64,000 nucleotides of DNA, from the NCBI RefSeq assembly GCF_023091865.1, contig NZ_JAHXDI010000003.1, positions 248,001-312,000 of the forward strand, given 5' to 3'. The position numbers and the translations under genes are program-made. Every line of letters starts with the position of its first letter. Positions within the stretch are counted from its first letter, which is position 1. A model generated the notes under the pieces. That model did not search any database. It saw only the letters and a program-made list of their open reading frames with translations, and was not told the DNA's origin. This stretch comes from Chromohalobacter moromii (lineage in GTDB: Bacteria; Pseudomonadota; Gammaproteobacteria; Pseudomonadales; Halomonadaceae). Below, in pieces: positions 41,446 to 54,614 of this stretch.

Positions 41446-42765
41446 ATGAGTGATCTCAAAAAAACGCTAACTCTAAGTGCTATAGTGCTTTTCGGGTTAG
41501 CATACATGACGCCGACAGTAGTTCTGGCTACTTTCGGAATCCTTGCTGATACGACCCAAGGGGGAGTTCCCTCAGCATACGTAGCAGCATTAATTGCAAT
41601 TATTTTCACTGCTATCAGCTATGGCCATATGGCAGCCATATATCCAATGGCTGGTTCTGCCTATACCTATGTCAGAAAAGCCATAGATACACGCCTAGGC
41701 TTTTTAGCTGGGTGGGCCGTGCTTTTGGATTATTTATTCCTTCCCATGGCCATCTGGTTAATTGGTTCTGCTTATCTCCATTCGGCATTCCCTTCTATTC
41801 CTCAATCGATTTGGGTGCTCGCATTTATCGTCGCCACCACAACGGTAAATATCTTGGGGATCAAGACTGCTAATACCATCAATATACTAATGATGACCAT
41901 TCAGTTCTTAGTCTTGATCGCATTTGTGGCGCTGTGCGTTCACTATGTATGGGGTGATGCCACGCAACCATTGTGGACGTTTTCACCATTTATCCCCACG
42001 GATGGCCTTGATGTATCACTGATAATGTCAGGAGCGGCGATCGCCTGCTATTCATTCCTAGGCTTCGACGCCATCACCACACTCGCAGAGGAAACACGCG
42101 ATTCACGCCGCACGATACCTAAAGCAATCATCCTTACGACGCTAATTGGCGGCGCCATCTTCATTATAACGTCATACTTTGTTCAGCTTTCTCACCCAGG
42201 TGCGAGCTTTGAAAATACTGATGCAGCAGCCTTCGAGATTGCCCAAAACATTGGCGGCGACATTTTCGTGTCCATCTTCATGATCGGCATGCTGGTCGGG
42301 CAGTTTGCTTCTGGCTTAGCTTCACAAGCTAGTGCATCTCGCCTTCTCTTTGCGATGGGGCGTGATAGTGTCCTGCCAAACAAGATTTTTGGTAAGCTTG
42401 GTAAATTCCAAACGCCTGTCAACGCACTCATACTTTGTGGAACAGTCGCGTTACTAGCGCTCAAACTTGATGTTTCCACATCAACTTCCTTTATTAACTT
42501 CGGCGCTTTTCTCGCTTTTTCACTTGTCAATCTATCCGTTATTTTCGCCTGCTATATCGGCAAAAGAAAGCAGGGATTAAAACCACACCTGTTGTACTTG
42601 GCCTTCCCCGTCATTGGAATCTTGGCCATGATATGGCTGATGATTAGCCTGGATCACCTAGCCATCATGCTGGGCAGTGCGTGGCTGTTGTGCGGCCTGG
42701 CGTGGCTGACCTGGCTGACGCGTGGCTTCAGCCGCCCCACGCCGGAGCTGAACCTGGAGAGTTGA
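41446..42765 (+). CDS. APC-family amino acid/amine permease
   Basis: A 439-residue, 12-helix APC transporter. N-terminal LSAIVLFGLAYMTPT, GHMAAIYPMAGSAYTYVRKAI and FLGFDAITTLAEETRDSRRTIPKAI are family signatures, and the type recalls putrescine importers such as PuuP/PlaP. It is AT-rich like the hydrolase gene, except for the last 30 or so codons (after about 42660), which return to GC-rich usage. The pair probably imports and hydrolyses an amide or amine. Ribosome site CTGGAGAAATC precedes the ATG. Confidence 0.83.
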   Translation: MSDLKKTLTLSAIVLFGLAYMTPTVVLATFGILADTTQGGVPSAYVAALIAIIFTAISYGHMAAIYPMAGSAYTYVRKAIDTRLGFLAGWAVLLDYLFLPMAIWLIGSAYLHSAFPSIPQSIWVLAFIVATTTVNILGIKTANTINILMMTIQFLVLIAFVALCVHYVWGDATQPLWTFSPFIPTDGLDVSLIMSGAAIACYSFLGFDAITTLAEETRDSRRTIPKAIILTTLIGGAIFIITSYFVQLSHPGASFENTDAAAFEIAQNIGGDIFVSIFMIGMLVGQFASGLASQASASRLLFAMGRDSVLPNKIFGKLGKFQTPVNALILCGTVALLALKLDVSTSTSFINFGAFLAFSLVNLSVIFACYIGKRKQGLKPHLLYLAFPVIGILAMIWLMISLDHLAIMLGSAWLLCGLAWLTWLTRGFSRPTPELNLES

Positions 42766-42784
42766 TAAGCAAGGGCGAATCGCT

Positions 42785-42820
42785 AACGCCCGCGATCGGC
42801 TCAGGCCGGTCGCGGGCGTT
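42785..42820. terminator. Bidirectional terminator between permease and ruvX
   Basis: Perfect 11-bp stem AACGCCCGCGA / TCGCGGGCGTT with a 14-base loop, between convergent genes. It touches the ruvX stop codon. Confidence 0.7.
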
Positions 42821-43266
42821 TATGGCATGCGGTGCAGGAAGGTGTCGTCGGCGAAGAAGCTTTCCAGAATCAACTGCGCGGCGATGCCGTCCACGCCGTC
42901 GTCACGATAGTTGCCCCGGTGCCCGGCATCGCGGGCGATGCGCTTGGCGGCCCGCGTCGAGCCGCGCTCGTCGAACACCTCCACCGGCTTGCCGAAGCGC
43001 CCATGCAGGCGATTGCCGAACTTGCGCGCCCGCCGACTCATGTCTGACTCGGTGCCGTCCATGTTGAGCGGCAGCCCTACGACCAAAAGATCCGGCTGCC
43101 ATTCGTTGAGCAACTGGCCGATCTGCTGCCACTCGGGAATCCCGTTACGCGCGGGCAACGGCGCCAGGGCCGTGGCACTGCCCAGCATTTCGTTACCTAC
43201 CGCCACGCCGATGCGCCGCGTGCCATAATCGAAGGCCAGTACCAGCCGCTGCCCCGCCTCGGCCAT
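42820..43266 (-). CDS. ruvX: RuvX/YqgF RNase H-fold nuclease
   Basis: A 148-residue YqgF-type nuclease (pre-16S rRNA 5'-end processing; also called putative Holliday junction resolvase). Asp motif LAFDYGTRRIGVAVG, VVGLPLNMDGTE, and FDERGSTRAA with catalytic acids. The start at 43266 makes a TGATG-type overlap with yqgE, the usual arrangement. A longer frame to 43392 is not used. Confidence 0.93.
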   Translation of the reverse strand: MAEAGQRLVLAFDYGTRRIGVAVGNEMLGSATALAPLPARNGIPEWQQIGQLLNEWQPDLLVVGLPLNMDGTESDMSRRARKFGNRLHGRFGKPVEVFDERGSTRAAKRIARDAGHRGNYRDDGVDGIAAQLILESFFADDTFLHRMP

Positions 43267-43823
43267 CAGGAATGTCCCGCCTCGCGCGTCATCAGGTTCA
43301 GATCGACGCCCAAGATACCCGCCGCCGCGTTCAGGCGCTGCTCGGCATGCACGTCGAAGAGGATCGAGGCGTCGCCTTCCACCGTCAGCCAAGTGTTCTG
43401 CTTGAGTTCGTCCTCGAGCTGGCCTGCCTGCCAGGCGGTGCAGCCCAGGCAGACGATGAAGTCTTCGGGGCCCCGGCCCTCGGCGATGGCCTTGAGCATA
43501 TCCATGGAGGTCGTCAGGGCGAGGTCGTCAGCGACCTGCAGGCTGGAATCCCAGGGTAGATTCGAGCCGCGATGCAGGATGAAGCCACGATCCTTGTGGA
43601 CCGGGCCACCATAGTGAACCGGCAAGTCGCGCTGCAGGCACTCCGAGGCATCCAGCTCGAGCTGCTCGAGCAGGGCATCCAGCGTCAGCTCCATGGGGCG
43701 ATTGACGATCACGCCCATGGTGCCGTTGTCGTCATGGTCACAGATGTAGGTCAACGTCCCCTTGAAGTTAGGGTCGTCGAGATGCGGCATCGCCAGCAGA
43801 AAATGATGCTTCAAGCTTTGCAT
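43266..43823 (-). CDS. yqgE: YqgE/AlgH family protein
   Basis: A 185-residue YqgE/AlgH protein: FLLAMPHLDDPNF, the NGTMGVIVNRPMEL core and HYGGPVHKDRGFILH. The biochemical role is unsettled. GGGAGGCTC precedes the ATG. Overlaps ruvX, downstream of gshB, in the conserved gshB-yqgE-ruvX order. Confidence 0.93.
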   Translation of the reverse strand: MQSLKHHFLLAMPHLDDPNFKGTLTYICDHDDNGTMGVIVNRPMELTLDALLEQLELDASECLQRDLPVHYGGPVHKDRGFILHRGSNLPWDSSLQVADDLALTTSMDMLKAIAEGRGPEDFIVCLGCTAWQAGQLEDELKQNTWLTVEGDASILFDVHAEQRLNAAAGILGVDLNLMTREAGHS

Positions 43824-43941
43824 GAGCCTCCCGGGCGTCGAGGCGCGTCCCGCCCCTCGCTTACGCCGAAATTGGTGCTTGTCGCAGCGATTGTATCACT
43901 GCCCTTGCCGAACCTCGCCATCGTGGGATGGCAAGCGGCGC

Positions 43942-44895
43942 TCAAAAGCGCCGGGCAATGGCGTCCATCAATAATCCACCGATGTCGGTGCCGCGCTGGG
44001 CGTCGATCTCGCGCACGCAGGTGGGGCTGGTGACATTGATCTCGGTGATGTAATCGCCGATCACGTCGAGCCCAACGAAGATCAGCCCCTTGTCGAGGAT
44101 CGCCGGCTTGACCTGCTCGATGAGCCAATAATCGCGGTCGGTGAGCTCGCGGGCCTCGCCGCGCCCGCCGGCCGCCAGGTTGCCGCGTGTCTCGCCAGCG
44201 CTGGGAATGCGCGCCAGACCATAGGGCACCGGCTCGCCGTCGATCAGTAGGATGCGCGTATCGCCGGCCTTGATCTCGGGCAGATAACGCTGCGCCATGA
44301 TCTGGCGCGTGCCGCGCTCGGTGAGCTGCTCGATGACCGAGCCCAGATTGCGGCCCTCCGGCGTGATATGAAAGATGCCGCTACCACCCATGCCGTCCAG
44401 CGGTTTGAAGATCACATCGCCATGCCGGGCATGAAAATCGCGCAAGACGGCATCGTGGCAAGAGACCACGGAGGGCGGGATGCAGTGCGGGAACTGCTGG
44501 GCAAAGAGCTTCTCGTTGCTGGTCAAAAGCGCCTGGGTGGGATTGACCACCAGCACGCCCTCGCGCTCGGCGAAGCCCAGCAAGTGCACGGCGTTGAGGA
44601 AGTGATCATCCACCGGCGGGTCCTGGCGCATCAGGATCACGTCGAGCTCCGCCAGCGGCGCGGCTTGCACTTCCTCGAGTCGATACCACGCCTCGGGGTC
44701 ACGGTACGCCTCCAGCGCGCGCATGCGGCCCATGGCGCGCCCACCTTCCAGGTACAGGTCTTCCGGCTCGAGATAATAAAGCGACCAGCCGCGTTGCTGC
44801 GCGGCCCACAGCATGGCCAGGGTGGTGTCTTTCTTGTAGGCGATATCGGCGATGGGGTCCATCACCACGCCGAGCTTCAAGGCGCGCTCGCTCAT
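43942..44895 (-). CDS. gshB: Glutathione synthetase
   Basis: A 317-residue ATP-grasp ligase joining gamma-glutamylcysteine and glycine. N-terminal VMDPIADIAYKKDTT, ATP-grasp segments FKPLDGMGGSGIF and MAQRYLPEIKAGDTRIL, and DYITEINVTSPTCVREID. Normal length. In many gammaproteobacteria rsmE directly precedes gshB; here cvfB and an inserted island lie between them. Confidence 0.96.
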   Translation of the reverse strand: MSERALKLGVVMDPIADIAYKKDTTLAMLWAAQQRGWSLYYLEPEDLYLEGGRAMGRMRALEAYRDPEAWYRLEEVQAAPLAELDVILMRQDPPVDDHFLNAVHLLGFAEREGVLVVNPTQALLTSNEKLFAQQFPHCIPPSVVSCHDAVLRDFHARHGDVIFKPLDGMGGSGIFHITPEGRNLGSVIEQLTERGTRQIMAQRYLPEIKAGDTRILLIDGEPVPYGLARIPSAGETRGNLAAGGRGEARELTDRDYWLIEQVKPAILDKGLIFVGLDVIGDYITEINVTSPTCVREIDAQRGTDIGGLLMDAIARRF

Positions 44896-44973
44896 GATCG
44901 GTCTTCCAGGCTAGGAATGAATGCGCGCAGTATGCCGCAGCGACCAGCGGAAGACCAAGGCGCCAGCGGCGCG

Positions 44974-45708
44974 TCAGCCGGACTGATGCGCGTCTATCGC
45001 CTCGCGCGTCAGGCGGATGCCTTCTTCTTCGATGGTGATCAGCCGCTTCTTGTAGAGCCTGCCCACCGCCTGTTTGAAGGCGCTCTTGCTCACGCCCATG
45101 CGTGCCTTGATCTCGGCGGCGGGCGTCTTGTCGCCCAGCGCCACATACCCGCCATGGCAGCGCAGCAGCTCCAGCACCTTGTCACCGACCACATCGAGCC
45201 CTGCCTCGCCGGGCGGTAGCATGGCCAAATCGAGGCGCCCGTCTTCGCGCACGCGCTTGATATAACCGGTCAGCCGTTGGCCACGCCGAGGCGGATGGAT
45301 GATGTCATCGGCGTACAGCAAACCCCAATAGCGGTGATCGACCACCGCCTTGAAGCCCAGGTCAGTACGCTCGGCGATCACTAGCGCGACGCGGTCGCCG
45401 GCCGTCATATCCGGTGCCTCATCGGCCAGGAAGCGATCCAGACGCATCGACGCCACCGGCCGTCCTTGAGCGTCTTCGTAGAGCATCACCAACACCCGCT
45501 TACCGACCTCGGGACGAAAACGCTGCTCGGCGAACGGCAGCAACACGTCCTTCGGCTGGCCCCAATCGAGAAAAGCCCCGGTGGTATTGACCGCCACCAC
45601 CTTGAGATACGCCACCTCACCGATGCGTGCCAGAGGTGGCCGCGTCGAACTCGACGCACGCCGGCCGGGAGCGGAGGAACGTGGGGCGGGATCTGGGGAA
45701 CGGGACAT
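44974..45708 (-). CDS. cvfB: CvfB-family S1-like RNA-binding protein
   Basis: A CvfB/YitL-type protein of about 244 residues: S1-like repeats (LKVVAVNTTGAFLDWGQPKDVLLPF; YWGLLYADDIIHPPRRGQRLTGYIKRVREDGRLDLAM) and a C-terminal winged helix (GDKTPAAEIKARMG; FKQAVGRLYKKRLI). The start is uncertain: 45708 is listed, and 45741 is possible; neither has a strong ribosome site. The N-terminal 25 residues are Ser/Arg/Pro rich. Confidence 0.85.
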   Translation of the reverse strand: MSRSPDPAPRSSAPGRRASSSTRPPLARIGEVAYLKVVAVNTTGAFLDWGQPKDVLLPFAEQRFRPEVGKRVLVMLYEDAQGRPVASMRLDRFLADEAPDMTAGDRVALVIAERTDLGFKAVVDHRYWGLLYADDIIHPPRRGQRLTGYIKRVREDGRLDLAMLPPGEAGLDVVGDKVLELLRCHGGYVALGDKTPAAEIKARMGVSKSAFKQAVGRLYKKRLITIEEEGIRLTREAIDAHQSG

Positions 45709-46249
45709 GATGGCGACCACTGACGAGAGATATGTCCTCATTATGACGCCGCCCGGCAATGCGAGCAAAGGGCGTTGTAGGGAGCGGCATCGACAACTGC
45801 CGGCAGGCGATGACGTACAGGACCGCCCCACCGCGCGCCGTCGTCTGACTAGTGACGGTTCACACCGGCACATCGGCTGCAAACGTTTACCGGGATGCCG
45901 ACCGCAACTGCTACGGCGACGTATCTGGATTCGATGGAGAGCGGATCACGCCACCGCCGATTCCGTGGAAGATGGCAACCCATTGAGTCGCAGCACTCAC
46001 CCCAAATCGCCGAAGTGATGCTGGAGCAGCGTAAGGGCGACGACGGGGGCGGTTTCGGTGATGGAATGGGCCTTATCGTACGAAGTGAGGCGATTTATAG
46101 AGCAGCATGGGCGTGAATTTGCGATGTCCCCAAACATCTGGGCTCAAGCGTAGAATTTCCGCCTGAATCTGCAGGTATGTTGGCTAAATCGTTAGCCTAT
46201 GCCATATTAAATGTTAATTAAATTAATCAGCATAATATAAGCCAAGGCC
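45709..46249. other. Gene-poor region spanning the left end of the island
   Basis: A 541-bp stretch with no convincing gene. It contains the left copy of the 61-bp rsmE repeat (45999-46059). Just after it a 30-codon frame from ATG 46061 to TAG 46153 (MEWALSYEVRRFIEQHGREF...) starts at the repeat edge; it may be a gene remnant but was not recognised. From about 46160 the DNA turns AT-rich towards the racemase-like gene. Confidence 0.4.
45999..46059 (+). repeat. Left copy of the rsmE 3'-end direct repeat (attL-like)
   Basis: 61 bp matching 49864-49924 at 59 of 61 positions (differences at 46012 and 46054). The right copy is the real 3' end of rsmE. Duplication of a gene 3' end at both borders is the mark left by site-specific integration of islands. 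Confidence 0.75.
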
Positions 46250-47050
46250 ATGATACCCAATACACTCCATCAGCCCATAGCGGTGTTCGATGCAGGGATC
46301 GGCAGCTATGCCATTGTTGCCGAGATACAAAGGCAATTGCCGAACCAAGACATCATCTATTTAGCAGACCGTGCCAGTTTTCCTTATGGTGACAAATCGC
46401 CTGATGCTCTTTCCCTTATCATGCAGAAAACTCTACGTTTTCTTGAGGAGTTTAACCCCTCCGCAATCGTCGTAGCGTCTAATGCACCTTCCATCACGGT
46501 GCTGGAAGCTATCCGCCCCATGACCCGAACACCCCTATTCGGTGTCTTCCCTCCGCTAAAAGAGGCGATCTCGCGCTCCCAAAGCGGTAAGGTTGGCATC
46601 ATGGGCGTGCGCGCGCTCGTCGAAAGTGAGATGTTGAGGAACTTCGTCAGTAATAACAGTACTAGTGTCGAGAATGTTGCTCTGCTTGATGCATCAAGCA
46701 TGGTAGAGCTAGTCGAGAGCGGCACTTTTCTTTTCGATCCCGCGCGTACCCAGGCGAAGGTACAAGCGTTCGTCGAGGACATATTCAAAAAAGCACCTAC
46801 ATTAGATGTGCTAACGCTCTCGAGCACACACCTCCCTTGGCTGAAGCCTTTTTTCGAACGCGCACGCCCCCAATGCCATTTCCTGGACCCTGCCGAAAAT
46901 ATCGTTGCCAGCCTTGGTGAGGGCACCGCCGGAAGCGGAATTGTAAAAACACTGGTAAGTGAAGATGAACGTTACTCCGTTGACGATTTTCACCAGATGC
47001 TTTTCCAGTTGGGCGTCGACCTCCCTCTAGAAGTCGTTGAAGTTACCTGA
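46250..47050 (+). CDS. Glutamate racemase-like protein lacking both catalytic cysteines
   Basis: A 266-residue MurI/Asp-Glu racemase homologue. It keeps FDAGIGS (Asp14), IYLADRASFPYGDKS and the two-domain layout. The first catalytic Cys (usual ACNT) is Ser77 in VVASNAPS, and the second (usual GCTHYP) is Ser192 in LSSTHLPW. It is therefore unlikely to be a proton-transfer racemase. It could be a different enzyme, a ligand sensor or a decayed racemase. The frame is intact and ATG 46250 is the first in frame. It lies first in the island, 101 bp before the AraC gene. Confidence 0.75.
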   Translation: MIPNTLHQPIAVFDAGIGSYAIVAEIQRQLPNQDIIYLADRASFPYGDKSPDALSLIMQKTLRFLEEFNPSAIVVASNAPSITVLEAIRPMTRTPLFGVFPPLKEAISRSQSGKVGIMGVRALVESEMLRNFVSNNSTSVENVALLDASSMVELVESGTFLFDPARTQAKVQAFVEDIFKKAPTLDVLTLSSTHLPWLKPFFERARPQCHFLDPAENIVASLGEGTAGSGIVKTLVSEDERYSVDDFHQMLFQLGVDLPLEVVEVT

Positions 47051-47151
47051 GCGAACAACGCAGAGTGATACTGCACAAGCGCCAAGACTTCCGCTCCCGG
47101 CACAGTTGGCAGTACCCTTGAAGGATCGGCGTTATCTTTTGAAGAGTCGCC

Positions 47152-47958
47152 TTGAATGATTCTGCTGGAGACTGGTGCATCGTCGCCCCGCCCTCAAAAA
47201 TCGAGCAGATCGAGGCTCGTTTCCAGGGTCACGCCTACAGCATGCACCGGCACGACACCTTCGCGATCGGCGTCACCTTAGAAGGGGTTCAAAGCTTCCA
47301 CTACCGCCGTGATCATCGACACAGTCTACCCGGTACGGTAATGGTACTTCACCCGGATGAGGCCCACGATGGCCATGCTGGCGATAGGCGTGGCTTTCAT
47401 TACCGAATGCTTTATATTGCCCCGTCTCTGATCCAACCCGCGCTCGGTGGAAAAGCACTGCCGTATGTTACCGGCGGCCTCTCGACGGACCCGCGCTTGT
47501 CGGTCGCGGTGCGATCCTTATTGTTCTCTCTCGAAGCGCCGCTTGATGCCCTTGAGGAAAATGACGGCATCGCCGATCTAGCCGCCGCACTAGAAGCCAG
47601 CAGCGACACTCGAATCTCCCGCACTAGGTTGACCCTAGACTACCAAGCTGCAAGCCGGGTCAGGGCCTACCTAGACGCACACCGAATCGAGGGCGTCACA
47701 CTAGATGATTTAGAGTCGGTATCGGGACAGGAGCGCTGGACGCTCTCCCGGGACTTTCACGCGCTTTTGGGGACCAGCCCCTATTTCCTTTTGAGCGGGT
47801 TCAACTCGGGTCTACTGCAAGACCATGTGTGTAGCGACTCCGATCAAGATCAGACCCAAGACGCGTTCTATCCAGGGCTTGAGGCGCCAGATGGCCGACA
47901 AGAACCTCGGCGTCGAGAGCCAGAAGGCCACACCGCCAAACCAGGCAAGATGCGCTAG
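47152..47958 (+). CDS. AraC-family regulator truncated in its DNA-binding domain
   Basis: An AraC regulator with an N-terminal cupin-type ligand domain (YSMHRHDTFAIGVTLEGVQSF, LHPDEAHDG) and the first HTH (VTLDDLESVSGQERWTLSRDFHALLGTSPY). After GTSPYF the family sequence, including the second HTH, is missing; the last 48 or so codons (from about 47812) run antisense through the end of the convergent lysE gene. The truncation junction lies near 47795-47812. DNA binding is probably impaired. TTG start, with GAAGAG upstream. Confidence 0.7.
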   Translation: MNDSAGDWCIVAPPSKIEQIEARFQGHAYSMHRHDTFAIGVTLEGVQSFHYRRDHRHSLPGTVMVLHPDEAHDGHAGDRRGFHYRMLYIAPSLIQPALGGKALPYVTGGLSTDPRLSVAVRSLLFSLEAPLDALEENDGIADLAAALEASSDTRISRTRLTLDYQAASRVRAYLDAHRIEGVTLDDLESVSGQERWTLSRDFHALLGTSPYFLLSGFNSGLLQDHVCSDSDQDQTQDAFYPGLEAPDGRQEPRRREPEGHTAKPGKMR

Positions 47959-48438
47959 TGAGATGATCAGACCGCACAGGATTTGAACGGCAACCGGTGT
48001 AGAAGGCTGAATGATCTGGGTGAAAATACTCAAGAAGAACAGCGTCGTTTTCGGATTCAGAGCATTGCATAGAAAGCCGGATCCGAACGCCGAGCGATCT
48101 GTGATGTCACGTTGATCAGCATCAGCGGCTACCTGTAGTGAAGTAGATGCCAGAAGGCTTTTCACGCCGAGATAGACAAGATAGGCCGCTCCAATCCACC
48201 GGATCATGGAGTAGACCTGGGGGAAGTTAGTGATGAGCAGGGCAACACCGGTCACGCAATACGCCACGTGTAGCCATACAGCAGTTGCTATGCCAACACT
48301 CGATAAGAGGCCGGCACGTCGTGAATAAATCATCGCGTTGCGACTAACCAATGCGAAATCCTGGCCAGGGCTAATGGCCATGCCGACGGCGATCAATGTC
48401 ACTGTGCCGAGTAGCGGCAGGTAGTCAAGGTCGATCAT
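47812..48438 (-). CDS. LysE/RhtB-family amino acid exporter
   Basis: A 208-residue, six-helix LysE-type exporter: ISPGQDFALVSRNAM near the N-terminus, then GAAYLVYLGVKSLL and FLCNALNPKTTLFFLSIF. Its ATG overlaps the stop of the truncated dioxygenase gene (ATGA), indicating translational coupling. A LysR gene is divergent from that pair. It would export an amino acid, perhaps the hydroxylated product of the lost enzyme. Confidence 0.87.
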   Translation of the reverse strand: MIDLDYLPLLGTVTLIAVGMAISPGQDFALVSRNAMIYSRRAGLLSSVGIATAVWLHVAYCVTGVALLITNFPQVYSMIRWIGAAYLVYLGVKSLLASTSLQVAADADQRDITDRSAFGSGFLCNALNPKTTLFFLSIFTQIIQPSTPVAVQILCGLIISLAHLAWFGGVAFWLSTPRFLSAIWRLKPWIERVLGLILIGVATHMVLQ

Positions 48439-48692
48439 AAATTCAAGTATGCGGCGCTCGTCGGCCGAGCGCCGCAGCTCTCCAGCGGCATGTCGCCCCA
48501 GCTCGCTGCGAACTCACGCCAGTCCGACAGTGCATGCTGATGCAGGTCGGTGAGAATGTTGGTCGTGGTCAGTCCATCGATGAAAAGATAATTGTGACGC
48601 GCTAAACCAGAACATAGATCATCGATATCCAGGCGTTGGGATACGCGATCGGTGGAGTAACGTCTTGCTGTGGTTTCTTGTAAAGTCGACAC
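48435..48692 (-). CDS. Truncated probable 2OG-Fe(II) dioxygenase, 85 residues
   Basis: GTG start with AAGGAGATTAATA directly upstream, and a stop that overlaps the lysE ATG, so the signals are of a real operon head. The sequence RYSTDRVSQRLDIDDL, HNYLFIDGL and EFAASWGDMPLE recalls the N-terminus of the 2OG-Fe dioxygenase family that includes isoleucine hydroxylase; after MPLE the family sequence and all iron ligands are absent. It is probably a remnant joined to lysE by a deletion. The family call is from memory and moderate at best. Confidence 0.5.
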   Translation of the reverse strand: MSTLQETTARRYSTDRVSQRLDIDDLCSGLARHNYLFIDGLTTTNILTDLHQHALSDWREFAASWGDMPLESCGARPTSAAYLNL

Positions 48693-48841
48693 TATTAATC
48701 TCCTTACCCATAGGCATGCGCAAGCACGTATTCAGCGCACACATACACAATTGGACAGTAAGGCTCTTGTTGGGAAACGATTCCTTTTCACACGAAGACG
48801 TGAACTTTTCTCATGCCATGGATGAGTGCAAGGAGCACAGC

Positions 48842-49747
48842 ATGATCAGATCTCTAGATGCGCTGCGTGTGTTCGTGGCGGTTGCCCGAGCAGAAAACAT
48901 GACAGTTGCTGCGGAGCGCCTGTTTGTAACGCCCGGCGCAGTGAGCAAGCGAATAAGGGATCTTGAGCAAGAGCTCGGTGCCCAACTTTTCGATCGCCAA
49001 CACAATTCAGTACGCCTGACGACCAAAGGTGCCGAGCTGTATCGCGTGAGTCAGAGCCTTTTCGATACGCTCTCAAGCGCATTGACCACTTTCGAAAAGC
49101 CCGCCGCGTCCGACGCGCCGTTAGTAGTGTCATGCGAACCTACGATCACCATGCAGTGGCTAATACCCCGACTGCCAGATTTCTACGCCCAGCATCCCGA
49201 TATCACGCTCCATCTGTTCGCTGCCGGCGGGCCTATGGATTTCCAGGCTACCTCGATCGATCTGGCGCTACGTCGGGACGATTTCGAATGGGACCCAGAC
49301 GTTTTCACCTACCGCGTAGCGGATGAAATCACCGGCGTTGTAGCTTCGCCTGGGCTGCCAGCATCAGCCAACGCAAGGCAGACGATACTCCACACGGCAT
49401 CACGGCCATCGGCATGGACCCCATGGAGGTCTCGCTTTCGACAGACCACGAGCATCGATCGAGAAATCGAATTCGAGCACTTCTATCTCAGTCTCCAAGC
49501 TGCGCGTGCCGGGCTGGGCTTTGCCATGGGCTCGATCTATATGGTCGCCGATCAGATTGAGACAGGTGAGCTCGTTGCCCCCATGGGCTTCATCGCCGAC
49601 GGTTCGTCTTATTGGCTACTGTCGCCCTCGTCTATCGACTCCGATGCTCGTAAACGCGCATTCCGTGACTGGCTAATCGATGCGCTCGGCAAAACAGCAC
49701 AGGCTCAACAGGCAAACGAGCCAGAAGGCTTGCAAGCCAGCACCTAG
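48842..49747 (+). CDS. LysR-family regulator
   Basis: A 301-residue LysR regulator: HTH SLDALRVFVAVARAENMTVAAERLFVTPGAVSKRIRDLE, then a periplasmic-binding-type effector domain. It is of the GcvA-like branch by pattern (RLTTKGAELYR; SIDLALRRDDFEW). ATG 48842 follows AAGGAG; an upstream in-frame ATG at 48665 has no such site. It is divergent from the dioxygenase remnant and lysE and is their likely regulator. Last gene before the right repeat. Confidence 0.85.
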   Translation: MIRSLDALRVFVAVARAENMTVAAERLFVTPGAVSKRIRDLEQELGAQLFDRQHNSVRLTTKGAELYRVSQSLFDTLSSALTTFEKPAASDAPLVVSCEPTITMQWLIPRLPDFYAQHPDITLHLFAAGGPMDFQATSIDLALRRDDFEWDPDVFTYRVADEITGVVASPGLPASANARQTILHTASRPSAWTPWRSRFRQTTSIDREIEFEHFYLSLQAARAGLGFAMGSIYMVADQIETGELVAPMGFIADGSSYWLLSPSSIDSDARKRAFRDWLIDALGKTAQAQQANEPEGLQAST

Positions 49748-49861
49748 ATCCAGGCCTGGCGTTAAGAATAATACGGGACATGCGACCGTTCCGTTCGTGA
49801 TCGTGCCGCGCATCTTCCGGGAGGTCTTCGATGCTGGCCACACCTATTGAAGCCGACCTAA

Positions 49862-50590
49862 CTACCCCAAATCGCCAAAGTGATGCTGGAGCAGCGTAAG
49901 GGCGACGACGGGGGCGGTCTCGGTACGCAGGATGCGGGGGCCGAGGGTGAGAGCGGTGAAGTCGGCGGCGTGGGCGGCGTCGACTTCGTTGGGCGATAGT
50001 CCGCCTTCAGGGCCGACGAGCAGTGCGACGCGAGTGACGTCGCTGGCGTGTTGCCAGGCAGTGTCGGTGGAAGGATGCAGGACGAGGCGCAGCGTTTCGT
50101 CACGCGTTGCTAGCCAGGCGTCGAGCGTTTGCGGGGGATGCACGGTGGGCACGCGGCTGCGTCCGCATTGCTCGCAGGCGCTGACCGCGACGGCCTGCCA
50201 GTGGGCGAGCTTCTTGGCTTCGCGCTCACCCTTGAGGCGCACGTCGCCGTGCTCGGTGTAGAGCGGGGTGATGGCCGCGACGCCGAGCTCGGTGGCCTTC
50301 TGGATCGCGTAGTCCATGCGGTCGCCCTTGGAAATCGCCTGGCCCAGGTGCACCGCCAGCGGCGACTCGGCGCCACTCTCGGTCACGGCGGTGACCCGAA
50401 CGCGTACCTCGCGACGCCCCACACTGACGATTTCGGCCTCGGCTTCATGGCCCTCGCCATCGAACAGACGCAATGCCGCGCCTTCACGCAGGCGTAGCGC
50501 GCCCGCCACGTGGCGCGAGGCACCTTCGGGCAGGGTGATTTCCGCTGCGGCGACCAACGTGGCCGCCACATGAATGCGCGGTCCGGCCAT
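49862..50590 (-). CDS. rsmE: 16S rRNA (uracil1498-N3)-methyltransferase
   Basis: A 242-residue RsmE with the N-terminal PUA-like part (HVAGALRLREGAALRLFDGEG) and the C-terminal SPOUT knot LLVGPEGGLSPNEVDAA and LGPRILRTETAPVVAL. Follows secB by 3 bp on the minus strand. Its last 20 codons are duplicated at 45999-46059, marking the insertion point of the island; rsmE itself stays complete. Confidence 0.95.
   Translation of the reverse strand: MAGPRIHVAATLVAAAEITLPEGASRHVAGALRLREGAALRLFDGEGHEAEAEIVSVGRREVRVRVTAVTESGAESPLAVHLGQAISKGDRMDYAIQKATELGVAAITPLYTEHGDVRLKGEREAKKLAHWQAVAVSACEQCGRSRVPTVHPPQTLDAWLATRDETLRLVLHPSTDTAWQHASDVTRVALLVGPEGGLSPNEVDAAHAADFTALTLGPRILRTETAPVVALTLLQHHFGDLG
49864..49924 (+). 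repeat. Right copy of the direct repeat (rsmE 3' end, attR-like)
   Basis: The native 3' end of rsmE (up to one base of its stop codon), repeated at 45999-46059 with two mismatches. Confidence 0.75.
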
Positions 50591-50593
50591 CGC

Positions 50594-51088
50594 TTACTGC
50601 ACGTTCTCGGCGGCTTCGCTCTCACGCTTCTTCTTCTGGGCGTACATCGCCTCGAAGTTGACCGGTGACAGCATCAGCGGCGGGAAGCTGCCGCGATTGA
50701 CCAGGTTGTCGATGCACTCGCGCGCATAGGGGAACAGCATATTGGGGCAGAACGCGCCCAGGGTGTGGTCGAGCTGGTCGTCGCTCAAGCCGGCGATGCG
50801 GAACAAACCGGCCTGTTCCACTTCGACGAGAAACGCCGTGGCGCCGTCTTCGTTGTTGGTGACCTGCGCCGTCACCTTGACCACGACCTCGTAGAGGTTT
50901 TCACCGACCTGTTCGCTGGTGGTGTTGAGATCGAGCCCCACCTTGGGCTTGAACGCGTTCTGGAACACGCTCGGCGCATTGGGCGACTCGAAGGAGACAT
51001 CCTTGACGTAAATACGCTGCATGGAAAATTGCAGCTGGTTCTGCGTGTCGTTGCCACCTTGAGCGGCCTGATTGTTGTCTTCCGCCAT
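50594..51088 (-). CDS. secB: Protein-export chaperone SecB
   Basis: A 164-residue SecB tetrameric chaperone that delivers unfolded preproteins to SecA. FSMQRIYVKDVSFESPNAPSVF, the acidic NLYEVVVKVT strand and CPNMLFPYARECIDNLVNRGSFPPLMLSPVNF are conserved. AAGGAAG precedes the ATG. It lies 71 bp downstream of yibN; no glutaredoxin gene is between them as in E. coli. Confidence 0.97.
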   Translation of the reverse strand: MAEDNNQAAQGGNDTQNQLQFSMQRIYVKDVSFESPNAPSVFQNAFKPKVGLDLNTTSEQVGENLYEVVVKVTAQVTNNEDGATAFLVEVEQAGLFRIAGLSDDQLDHTLGAFCPNMLFPYARECIDNLVNRGSFPPLMLSPVNFEAMYAQKKKRESEAAENVQ

Positions 51089-51159
51089 GTTGCACTTCCT
51101 TTGACTTATCTATGCATGAGACGCGGGGCCCGGCGTGCGCCGCCCCGCCAGTGTATCGC

Positions 51160-51579
51160 TTACTTGCGGACCACCGGCAACTCATCGGACTGCCACTGGG
51201 TCATACCGCCCTTGAGCTTGGCCGCGCGGGTGAAGCCAGCCTGGGTCAACTGCCCCACGGCAGCGCCGGAGTGCTGGCCGTGCTGGCATACCACCACCAC
51301 CGGCTTTTCCTTGTAGTCCTCGAGCTCTTTGAGGCGATCCCCCAAACGGCCCTTGGGAATATTGCGGGCACCGGCGATATGCCCCGCCTTGAAGTCCTTG
51401 ACCTCGCGGATATCCAGAAACAGCCCCTCCTCGCGATTGATCAGCGAGGTGGCTTCGGACGGCGAGACGCCGCTGTTCGAGCCTTTCAGCTCGTAGGCGA
51501 TCCATGCCACCAGTACCACCAGAAAAGCGCCTGACAGTAGCAGGTGGTTTTGCACGAATTCGAATAACTGATCGATCAT
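51160..51579 (-). CDS. yibN: Membrane-anchored rhodanese-like protein YibN
   Basis: A 139-residue protein with an N-terminal membrane segment (about residues 10-29) and one rhodanese domain carrying Cys in VVCQHGQHSGAAV. It probably handles persulfide sulfur or acts as a membrane-protein biogenesis partner, as for E. coli YibN. The start at 51579 removes a poorly conserved 38-residue extension. Upstream of secB, in the usual order. Confidence 0.87.
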   Translation of the reverse strand: MIDQLFEFVQNHLLLSGAFLVVLVAWIAYELKGSNSGVSPSEATSLINREEGLFLDIREVKDFKAGHIAGARNIPKGRLGDRLKELEDYKEKPVVVVCQHGQHSGAAVGQLTQAGFTRAAKLKGGMTQWQSDELPVVRK

Positions 51580-51837
51580 GGGTGCGGATAACTCTCGTTG
51601 TGTGTCTGTCGGCGTCGTGTGCGCTCGGCGAACGCCGCATGCCCCGGCGGGCGCCTTAGTATACATGAGCCATGCGCGAGCGTCCGGCCCCACCGACGCG
51701 GCTGACGCTCTGTCGTGACTGCGTTATGATGCCGCAAGGAGACGTGAGTCGCGAACCCCGCAGCGGCACTGCCGCTTCATGGGGTCATCGGCCGGATGCG
51801 CCGATGCGACGCCCATCAGATTCCCGCGAGGCATGTT

Positions 51838-53415
51838 ATGGCAGATACCCACACCCAGCGTCCCCGGCCCGTTGCGCTGTTGATCCTCGATGGCTACGGC
51901 CAGAACGATGACACCGAGTACAACGCCGTCTACAGCGCCAAGACGCCGGTCATGGACGCGCTGAAACAACGCTACCCCTCCGCCTTGCTGCACACCGATG
52001 GCAAGTACGTCGGGCTGCCCGACGGCCAGATGGGCAACTCCGAAGTCGGCCACATGAACCTCGGCGCCGGGCGTATCGTCTATCAGGACTTCACGCGTAT
52101 CACCAAGGCCATTGAAGACGGTGAACTGGCCTCCAACACCGCGCTGACGGCGCCCATCGACGCCGCTGTGGCCGCCGGTCGCGCCGTGCATCTACTCGGT
52201 TTGCTCTCGCCAGGCGGCGTCCACAGCCACGAGGATCACATCCTCGCCGTGGCTGCGCTGGCCGCCGAACGTGGCGCCAAGCACGTCTATCTGCATGCCT
52301 TCCTCGACGGTCGCGATACCGCGCCCAAGAGCGCCCGCCCCTCGCTGGAACGTGCCAATGCACGGCTCGCCGAGCTGTTCGGCGCCGACAACGCCTACGT
52401 CGCTTCGATCGTCGGCCGTTACTACGCCATGGACCGCGACAATCGCTGGGACCGTGTCGAGCAAGCCTATCGCGTCATCGTCGAGGGTGAAGGCCAGCAG
52501 GTCGCCACCAGTGCCGAGGCCGGGCTGGACGCCGCCTACGAACGTGACGAAACCGACGAATTCGTCGCCGCCACCAGCATCCGCCCGCACGGCGAGCCGG
52601 TGCGCATGGCCGACGGCGATGCCGCGCTGTTCCTGAACTTCCGCGCCGACCGCGCCCGCGAGCTGACCCGCGCCTTCGCCGAGGACGACTTCAGCGGCTT
52701 TACTCGCCAGGCACGGCCCAAGCTGGCTCACGAAGGGCTGGTGATGCTCACCGAGTACGCCGCGAACATTCCGGCGCCGGTGGCCTTTCCGCCCACCGAT
52801 CTGGTCAACACCTTGGGCGAGACCGTCGCCAAGCGCGGCCTGAAGCAGCTACGCATCGCCGAGACCGAGAAGTACGCCCACGTCACCTTCTTCTTCTCCG
52901 GCGGCCGCGAAGACGAGTTCGACGGCGAGACTCGCGAGCTGATCCCCTCGCCGCAGGACGTCAAGACGTACGACGAGAAGCCGGAGATGAGCGCTTACGA
53001 GCTTACCGACAAGCTGGTCGCGGCCATTGATGCCGGCACGTACGATCTGGTGGTGTGCAACTACGCCAACGGCGACATGGTCGGCCACAGCGGCGACTTC
53101 GATGCCGCGGTCAAGGCCATCGAGGCGGTGGATGTCTGCCTGGGCCGGGTGATCGACGCCATCGAGCGTGCCGGCGGCGAGTGTCTGGTCACCGCCGATC
53201 ACGGCAACGCCGAGCAGATGGTGCATCCCGAGACCGGCAATCCGCAAACGGCGCACACCACCTTTCAAGTGCCGCTGGTCTATGTCACGCCACGCGCCGG
53301 CGCCACGCTGGCGGATGACGGCAGCCTGTGCGATTTGGCCCCGACCCTGCTGACGATGATGCACGAGTCGGTGCCCGAGGAAATGACCGGCCGCGTGCTG
53401 GTGGATACGCCCTGA
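51838..53415 (+). CDS. gpmI: 2,3-bisphosphoglycerate-independent phosphoglycerate mutase
   Basis: A 525-residue Mn-dependent i[15 protein letters not shown] (metal Asp), the active Ser in [26 protein letters not shown] and the metal-site [10 protein letters not shown]. Interconverts 3- and 2-phosphoglycerate. The start at 51838 follows GCGAGG. First of the gpmI-envC-ctpA run on the plus strand, a conserved gammaproteobacterial order. Confidence 0.97.
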
Positions 53416-53444
53416 ACGGTGTGCGTGTATTGCGGAGTCGGCGT

Positions 53445-54614
53445 ATGACGGCGCCAACGTCTGGCAAGCGAATCGCCATGGCCTGTGCCATGGCGATCTC
53501 GTGTGCGTGGCTGTCGCTGGGCGCTACCAGCGTCTGGGCGCAGAACTCGCCGGAGGCGGTCAAACGCCAACTCGAGGCCCTGGGAAGCGATATCCAGAAC
53601 GCCGAGTCGCGCCTCGAGGGCACCCGCGATGAACGCGATAGCGCGCAGGACGAATTACGCGAGGTTGAAACCGAGCTGGCCGATACCCAACAGCGGCTGA
53701 CAGGCCTGCAACGCGAGCAGGATCAACTCGACCAGGAAGTCGCCGAGCTCAAGCAGCAGCGCCAGACCCTCGAGGAAGAACGCCGCCAGCAACGCGCTGC
53801 GCTGGCCACACAACTCAACGCGCTATACCGGCTCGGCCCCACGCCACAGCTCAAACTGCTGCTCAATCAGACCGACCCCGCGCGGCTGGACCGCCTTCAG
53901 CAGTATCTCAATCATCTCAACCAGGCGCGTCAACAACGCCTCGACGCCCTGGCCAAGCTCGAAGACCAGCTCGACGACACGCAAAGCGCGCTACAGTCAC
54001 ACCAAGAGCGCCTGGACGACCTCGCCAGCGAGCTCACCGAGCGTCGCGAAACGCTCAGCGATCAACGCAGCGAGCGCGAAGCCATCCTCTCGAAGTACAA
54101 GGAACGCTACACCTCCCAGCAAGCCAAGCTGGCCGCGCTCACCGATAACCGCGAGGACGCTCAGCAACTGCTCGAACGAATGCAAGCCAAGCTCGAACGC
54201 CTCGACCAACCACCGCCCTCCACGGACATCGACCAAACCCGGGGCGAACTGCCCTGGCCCGTGCAGGGCAACATGCTCGCCACCTACGGCAACGGCGACG
54301 GCGTCGACCGCAACGGCATGCTCATCGGCGCCGCAGCAGGCACACCGGTCTCCGCCGTACACGCCGGCCGCGTGGTGTTCGCCAACTGGATGCGCGGTTT
54401 CGGTAACCTGTTGATCGTCGATCATGGCGACAATGTCATGACGCTCTACGCCCACCTGCAACGTTTCGATGTCGAGGTCGGCGCCCAGGTCACGCGCGGC
54501 GACACCCTCGCCGCCGTCGGCGACAGTGGCGGTCGCGACAGCCCCGCGCTGTATTTCGAAGTGCGCAAGGATGGCGACCCCATCGACCCCAGCGACTGGA
54601 TTGCCCGGCGCTGA
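53445..54614 (+). CDS. envC: Murein hydrolase activator EnvC
   Basis: A 389-residue periplasmic protein: signal peptide ending SVWAQ, a long Gln/Glu/Arg coiled coil (about residues 30-235), and a C-terminal LytM/M23 domain. The metal ligands of active M23 enzymes are absent (NGMLIGAAAGTPV and SPALYFEVR where His/Asp and His are expected), as in E. coli EnvC, so it activates amidases AmiA/AmiB at division sites rather than cutting murein. The start at 53445 follows GGAG, 29 bp after gpmI. Confidence 0.92.
   Translation: MTAPTSGKRIAMACAMAISCAWLSLGATSVWAQNSPEAVKRQLEALGSDIQNAESRLEGTRDERDSAQDELREVETELADTQQRLTGLQREQDQLDQEVAELKQQRQTLEEERRQQRAALATQLNALYRLGPTPQLKLLLNQTDPARLDRLQQYLNHLNQARQQRLDALAKLEDQLDDTQSALQSHQERLDDLASELTERRETLSDQRSEREAILSKYKERYTSQQAKLAALTDNREDAQQLLERMQAKLERLDQPPPSTDIDQTRGELPWPVQGNMLATYGNGDGVDRNGMLIGAAAGTPVSAVHAGRVVFANWMRGFGNLLIVDHGDNVMTLYAHLQRFDVEVGAQVTRGDTLAAVGDSGGRDSPALYFEVRKDGDPIDPSDWIARR

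Follow-up and report, generated by a model that had tools for sequence, protein, structure and literature searches.

The stretch of Chromohalobacter moromii DNA analysed here (hereafter the window: 64,000 nucleotides (nt), positions 248,001 to 312,000 of contig NZ_JAHXDI010000003.1) carries, next to the gene rsmE, a group of cargo genes enclosed between two copies of the rsmE 3′ end. The copies, a distal (left) one at 45999-46059 and a proximal (right) one at 49864-49924, both on the minus strand, form a direct repeat of 61 nt that agrees at 59 positions (97%) and is spaced 3865 nt from start to start; the second-longest direct repeat within 45000-51500 is 23 nt at 74%, and a DNA search of the 3.47-Mb genome returned no third place for the repeat. 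The right copy comprises the last codons of an intact rsmE open reading frame (ORF) of 242 codons on the minus strand (49862-50590), and rsmE is present in all ten genomes of the genus, the own genome and nine congeners. On its 5′ side lies a core flank ORF that we take to be secB (50594-51088, minus strand), in an order that is also found in locus L119. Beyond the left copy follow a relic of the 3′ end of a pirin gene that converges on rsmE (45892-45986, plus strand), an S1/winged-helix gene resembling cvfB, which usually lies next to rsmE (44974-45708, minus strand; PF17783 CvfB_WH, 6.8e-22), and a core flank ORF that is presumably the glutathione synthetase gene gshB (43942-44895, minus strand), a name backed by its synteny with cvfB and rsmE across the family. 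The pirin relic aligns to the ends of intact pirin genes in loci L025, L026 and L032, the last of which matches PF02678 and PF05726.

The cargo begins on the left with a segment (46060-47082, plus strand) holding an aspartate/glutamate racemase gene (46250-47050; PF01177, 1.8e-10). It is followed by an AraC-type regulator gene (47152-47785, plus strand) that matches only the ligand-binding domain family PF02311 and has lost its C-terminal part, by inference the DNA-binding end; homology to a longer C. canadensis gene ceases at ~47783, a longer copy being found in L026 and the same junction in L031. A LysE-type exporter gene (47812-48438, minus strand; PF01810, 5.5e-32) adjoins the stump of a 2-oxoglutarate/iron dioxygenase gene (48435-48692, minus strand), of which 85 codons without a Pfam match are left from a full gene of 260 codons that is intact in two congeners (the L031 copy matches PF10014 at 1.9e-63). 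A LysR-type regulator gene (48842-49747, plus strand; PF00126 and PF03466) and the tail of a further gene, convergent with rsmE (49770-49850, plus strand), complete the right edge; the 26-residue tail recurs next to rsmE in L104, L107, L108 and L109 and, at a distance of 1.5 kb from it, in L106. An earlier note on this DNA, made from the sequence alone, had described the repeat, held the right copy to be the true end of an intact rsmE and regarded the DNA between the copies as foreign and partly decayed. Each of these statements holds: a repeat search found the agreement over 61 nt again, the 242-codon frame confirms rsmE, and the guanine-plus-cytosine (GC) content is 54.1% between the copies against 61.9% for the window (64.0% over 43266-45770 and 65.1% over 49862-53415). 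Not every cargo gene has decayed: those for the racemase, LysE and LysR have open frames, and the dioxygenase and AraC genes are shortened. A Pfam scan of the cargo proteins, which included no search aimed at transposases, gave no match to a mobility family, and no tRNA gene lies within the window. Plasmid origin was also considered and rejected, as the six matches among 72,556 plasmid records span 3-8% of the searched sequence, with identities of 65-74%, and are not useful.

The same note had taken rsmE-gshB as the normal order and considered it broken at this point. The order is indeed disrupted here; the usual order in the family is, however, rsmE-cvfB-gshB, as follows from the placement of cvfB in 74 loci outside the genus: at most 500 bp from rsmE in 37, 501-4000 bp away in three and farther in two, with gshB alone found in six, cvfB not found within ~10 kb in 24 and too little sequence in the remaining two. 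Within the genus, the own genome (G000) was compared with C. beijerinckii DSM 7218 (G001), C. canadensis 85B (G003), C. marismortui (G005), C. nigrandesensis (G006), strains 296-RDG (G008) and 11-W (G009), and three other congeners (G002, G004, G007). In C. beijerinckii, the closest relative (L024, identical to L103), the site is empty: the counterparts of window positions 42733-46059 (96.4%) and 49864-54000 (98.3%) meet through one 61-bp copy, to which the left copy of the window is identical at 60 of 61 positions. The pirin relic is also present in C. beijerinckii, and in G002 the pirin gene is intact, with 13 bp between its end and the same end of rsmE. The left copy of the window therefore sits where the end of the resident rsmE belongs. 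It may be what remains of an older rsmE, still in its native place beside pirin. At position 56 of the repeat, T stands in the left copy and in the other congeners and C in the intact rsmE genes of the two sister genomes, a single site which hints that the duplication may predate the split of C. moromii and C. beijerinckii, the cargo having been lost in the latter.

The AraC, LysE, dioxygenase and LysR cargo lies, whole or in part and in the orientation of the window, beside rsmE in C. canadensis, 296-RDG and 11-W, and G002 and G004 to G007 carry other genes in the interval, as far as their contigs reach. Across the congeners the contents comprise a major facilitator superfamily (MFS) gene, a GH68 levansucrase gene, a short-chain dehydrogenase/reductase (SDR) gene with a LysR gene, pirin with isochorismatase, and the LysE-LysR cargo (SDR, MFS and isochorismatase were named by eye). 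The levansucrase gene occupies the rsmE-cvfB interval of C. nigrandesensis (L029 11332-12582; PF02435, 2.6e-151). The racemase segment has no match at the rsmE locus of the nine congeners, as far as their contigs reach, and a 90% match at another place in 296-RDG; of the 275 family genomes, 24 have relatives of the racemase at E<=1e-60, this genome among them, and ten of the 24 belong to Salinicola group g20. The empty site proposed for relatives is thus borne out by the single repeat copy without cargo in C. beijerinckii, and the view of an insertion hotspot next to rsmE is sustained by this site, by the differing genes of the congeners and by a cargo that is common to several species and to another genus.

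A further feature of the cargo is that its far edge carries one same-strand relic of rsmE in all four genomes that possess it. In the window, the relic is the last 61 nt of rsmE. In C. canadensis it consists of 47 nt at 96%, a gap and then nt 597-647 at 82%, reaching 133 nt into rsmE; in 11-W it spans ~43 nt; and in 296-RDG it is an internal piece, nt 394-434, at 84%. Terminal repeats with an unvarying core, as an integrase-type island would have, are not seen in these sequences, the distal copies varying in extent and going beyond the 61-bp core. Under a stringent scheme (2/-3) the relics score 123 (window), 84 (C. canadensis), 50 (296-RDG) and 51 (11-W); the highest background score is 43, found among 4804 tile-strands from which rsmE and the relics themselves were excluded. 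The relics of C. canadensis and 11-W are, in addition, collinear with the pirin end, a property that the relic score does not count. We grade two relics as clear, one as clear by position and one as moderate: the 11-W relic is rescued by its collinearity with the pirin end, and that of 296-RDG rests on position and stringent score, which is moderate evidence. In the cargo-less genomes (G001, G002 and G004 to G007, with G007 reaching 2.6 kb downstream), no rsmE-like stretch stands out, and searching the whole genomes of G002, G004 and G007 for the repeat returned a single place in each.

The cargo appears to have been exchanged between species. In 200-bp bins, the window is 97-100% identical to 296-RDG over 47400-48999 and 89.5-96% over 49000-49799, and 96.5-99.5% identical to 11-W over 47800-49799; the rsmE bins (50000-50599) show 87-93% with 296-RDG and 89.5-94% with 11-W, and the flank means are 93.6% and 93.5-95.4%, respectively. 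The LysR tree pairs C. moromii with 11-W (support 0.998), which the flank trees do not, and a site comparison across congeners revealed mosaic sites in the rsmE 3′ end. The cargo of the window is itself a mosaic, since it has the AraC-end deletion in common with 296-RDG and the dioxygenase deletion in common with C. canadensis. LysR relatives at E<=1e-60 were found in seven of 275 family genomes, in a survey that scored the best eight first-look candidates per genome and could have missed weaker relatives. Five are at least 91% identical, every one beside rsmE; the other two are a 77% copy elsewhere in C. nigrandesensis and a 43% relative in G046. One of the five genomes, Halomonas sp. EAR18 (G150), belongs to another genus group. 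Its LysR gene seems broken, as the in-frame match has half the length (146 of 301 residues). At the DNA level EAR18 is 94-100% identical to C. canadensis over ~850 bp and 84-92% across the final 300 bp together with the first 100 bp of rsmE; deeper into rsmE and the flank the identity ranges from 64 to 96% by 50-bp bin, and longer alignments spanning rsmE give 74-79%. The EAR18 interval also contains a transposase-like ORF recognised by eye (L109 16583-17233). A transporter gene common to EAR18 (L109 18370-19674) and C. marismortui (L028 11985-13349) is 85.6% identical in DNA with flanks at ~71-74%, and perhaps represents a second transfer between genera.

A possible intermediate is found in Salinicola salarius 1A01339 (G185), which has two rsmE copies, 90.4% alike, with both frames open as far as the contigs reach; the two contigs stop at one and the same base, close to where rsmE starts. 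One copy shares 8.9 kb of synteny with S. salarius DSM 18044. The second lies on contig C105 (14,942 bp), where rsmE is followed by 13.9 kb of amidase, asparaginase and peptide-transporter genes (named by eye) and, at the far end, by part of a rhodanese gene and by codons 32-84 of secB, where C105 stops at the very base at which the native secB contig also ends; the integrase model described below has no match in C105. The simplest joining of these contigs would give the order secB, rsmE, cargo, broken rhodanese and secB, rsmE, native genes, that is, a tandem insertion, and C105 is compatible with such an insertion or with a circle of ~15 kb. This strain seems to display an undecayed, younger stage of the order seen in Chromohalobacter, in which the distal rsmE would still be open.

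The suggestion that the rsmE 3′ end has hosted an unknown integrase family finds no support in these data. Matches to the tyrosine recombinase family PF00589 in the ten genus genomes lie farther away or on other contigs, with none within 200 kb of rsmE on its own contig, and larger versions of the island with an integrase at rsmE, as the earlier note had envisaged, were not encountered in these genomes, within the limits of the contigs. A hidden Markov model (HMM) of integrases was made from up to 30 integrase loci of congeners, using the longest ORF over each match so that a few members may be in the wrong frame, and was run over 120 family loci (overlapping sets of 80 and 40, the former including six Chromohalobacter loci). 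Its six matches represent four distinct loci, two being duplicates, all in the Salinicola group and ~6-10 kb from rsmE. The tyrosine recombinase lies there at a tRNA-Arg(CCG) gene (L063 7319-7395, L065 7141-7217, L071 9385-9461, L076 4174-4250), which gives the impression of an ordinary tRNA island site downstream of rsmE.

We propose that this side of rsmE is probably a hotspot that needs no integrase, which the cargo entered by homologous recombination with rsmE, duplicating the gene. In this proposal, the incoming genes would have been physically linked to a copy of rsmE, which would have recombined with the resident one, and the outcome would be the order secB, intact rsmE, cargo, second rsmE and native downstream genes. 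The distal rsmE, being redundant, would then decay, the 61-bp left copy beside the pirin relic representing the final stump; subsequently, the cargo could be swapped between species by further homologous recombination, and its clean loss would be possible through the repeats. The incoming DNA could have been circular, entering by a single crossover, or linear, and gain and loss in the window lineage may likewise have followed one another in either order. In a known class of genomic islands, a tyrosine recombinase has inserted the DNA at the 3′ end of a protein-coding gene; such islands have a gene-end direct repeat, an intact gene and an empty site in a relative, all of which are also seen here. 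It could be imagined that an element entered at the rsmE 3′ end through a recombinase since lost or supplied externally, the 61-bp copies being attL and attR and the gene end being restored; that the LysR cargo invariably keeps its place next to rsmE and its orientation, also in another genus, would suit such an origin. We nevertheless consider it unlikely, since no PF00589 member was found near rsmE in the genus within the contig limits, the Salinicola-group recombinases sit at tRNA-Arg instead, the distal copy of C. canadensis extends at least 133 nt into rsmE beyond any short core, S. salarius has duplicated rsmE together with part of secB, and positions 45892-50600 match none of 50,697 phage records. 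Entry by homologous recombination followed by decay of the distal copy is better suited to the relics, the empty site, the shared cargo, the S. salarius arrangement and the lack of an integrase.

Two further routes may be considered. In homology-facilitated illegitimate recombination, described in naturally competent bacteria (PMC3240628), linear DNA would have been anchored by one end in rsmE and joined at the other to a random point inside the resident rsmE, so that the stretch between was duplicated and each acquisition left a stump of its own length. The varying stump lengths agree with this, but they are equally expected from the decay of a whole-gene copy, and the S. salarius duplication spans all of the rsmE present on the contig and parts of secB and the rhodanese gene; we hold this route to be improbable, a shade more so than a vanished recombinase. 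Alternatively, a replication error might have duplicated rsmE in tandem before unrelated genes were inserted singly between the copies. The racemase segment, seen at the rsmE locus of the own genome only, is a separate addition that speaks in this direction, and it implies that the contents build up stepwise; every relic, however, accompanies the same cargo and none occurs without it in the ten genomes, which renders this origin very improbable.

Several observations count against homologous entry and distal decay. A plain double crossover in flanking core genes creates no duplication by itself. Under a lenient scheme (1/-1), the relics of 296-RDG (28.0) and 11-W (29.0) do not pass the background maximum of 29.5; an earlier background of 964 alignments, with a maximum of 23.0, was too small, and the larger control lowers the weight of both scores. 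In GC-rich relatives (80 loci and contig C105), lenient scores reach 42.5 on the wrong strand and are uninformative. The excess identity of the cargo over its flanks is moderate, and identities as high as those of the cargo are reached in some secB-side bins (90.5-99.5% with 11-W, 92-98.5% with 296-RDG). EAR18 has the LysR DNA beside rsmE, yet no rsmE relic stands out there (best same-strand score 20.5). In S. salarius, ~283 bp are missing between the contig ends, and the same picture would arise from an assembly error, the presence of a second strain or a circle left unintegrated. Finally, the rsmE contigs are short in 296-RDG (26 kb), C. beijerinckii (39 kb) and C. nigrandesensis (130 kb), and only ~2.6 kb (G007) and ~4.1 kb (296-RDG) are available downstream of rsmE, which limits the statements on integrases and relics.

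Integrase-less hotspots that recombine through the core genes on either side have been described as a class (PMC5635113, 2017). They resemble the present locus in their core-gene flanks, turnover of contents, lack of a detected integrase and exchange among relatives, and differ in the fate of the flanks, which the published double crossover keeps single; at this locus a core gene of the flank, rsmE, has itself been doubled, with one of the two copies in decay. Relative to known integrase-less hotspots, this footprint of a duplication, decayed to different degrees, is the unusual feature. Among the literature matches listed, as far as their text was available, none presented rsmE (yggJ) as an integration site of genomic islands, the rsmE match concerning the CsrA family in Pseudomonas; none on horizontal transfer or genomic islands in Chromohalobacter was on point, and those on isoleucine dioxygenase with LysE were off-topic. 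Compared with the islands at gene 3′ ends mentioned above, the locus is set apart by the absence of a detected integrase, by a distal copy that exceeds the short core and by the duplication of rsmE with part of secB in Salinicola.

Unconventional circularizable structures, in which DNA between direct repeats is excised as a circle, likewise have direct repeats around cargo without recombinase genes; here, the repeat is a housekeeping gene and the circle is hypothetical. By extension, and as a tentative proposition that we regard as rather doubtful, rsmE might act as an integrase-free mobility module in Halomonadaceae: cargo would leave as a circle with a copy of rsmE, the two rsmE copies having recombined with each other, and enter the rsmE of relatives by a single crossover, even across genera, the displaced copy decaying to an att-like repeat. 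Many gene-exchange hotspots are devoid of integrases, and the present locus bears on how they may first be opened. The genomes compared here can be arranged in a graded series, from the empty site through an apparent young duplication of rsmE and secB (Salinicola), a half-decayed copy (C. canadensis) and the 61-bp stump of the window to faint relics. Should the process be general, some of the short att-like repeats found at core genes beside integrase-less islands would be pseudogene stumps. The locus also cautions that a short gene-end repeat beside an island is insufficient to infer a lost integrase.

At least three RsmE matches were returned in 12 of the 275 family genomes, the own genome and S. 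salarius 1A01339 included, and six were re-examined. The extra matches of G264 and G250 stem from incomplete assemblies (71% and 89%) that may be mixed, that of G155 looks like a frameshift, those of G042 are split 279 kb apart and the third match of G125 is weak; none of these was used as support, nor was G217, in which rsmE is broken at approximately codon 140-163. In this last genome (L200, L201), the end of rsmE lies on another contig with an identical overlap of 35 bp, which would be consistent with a rearrangement or an assembly break.

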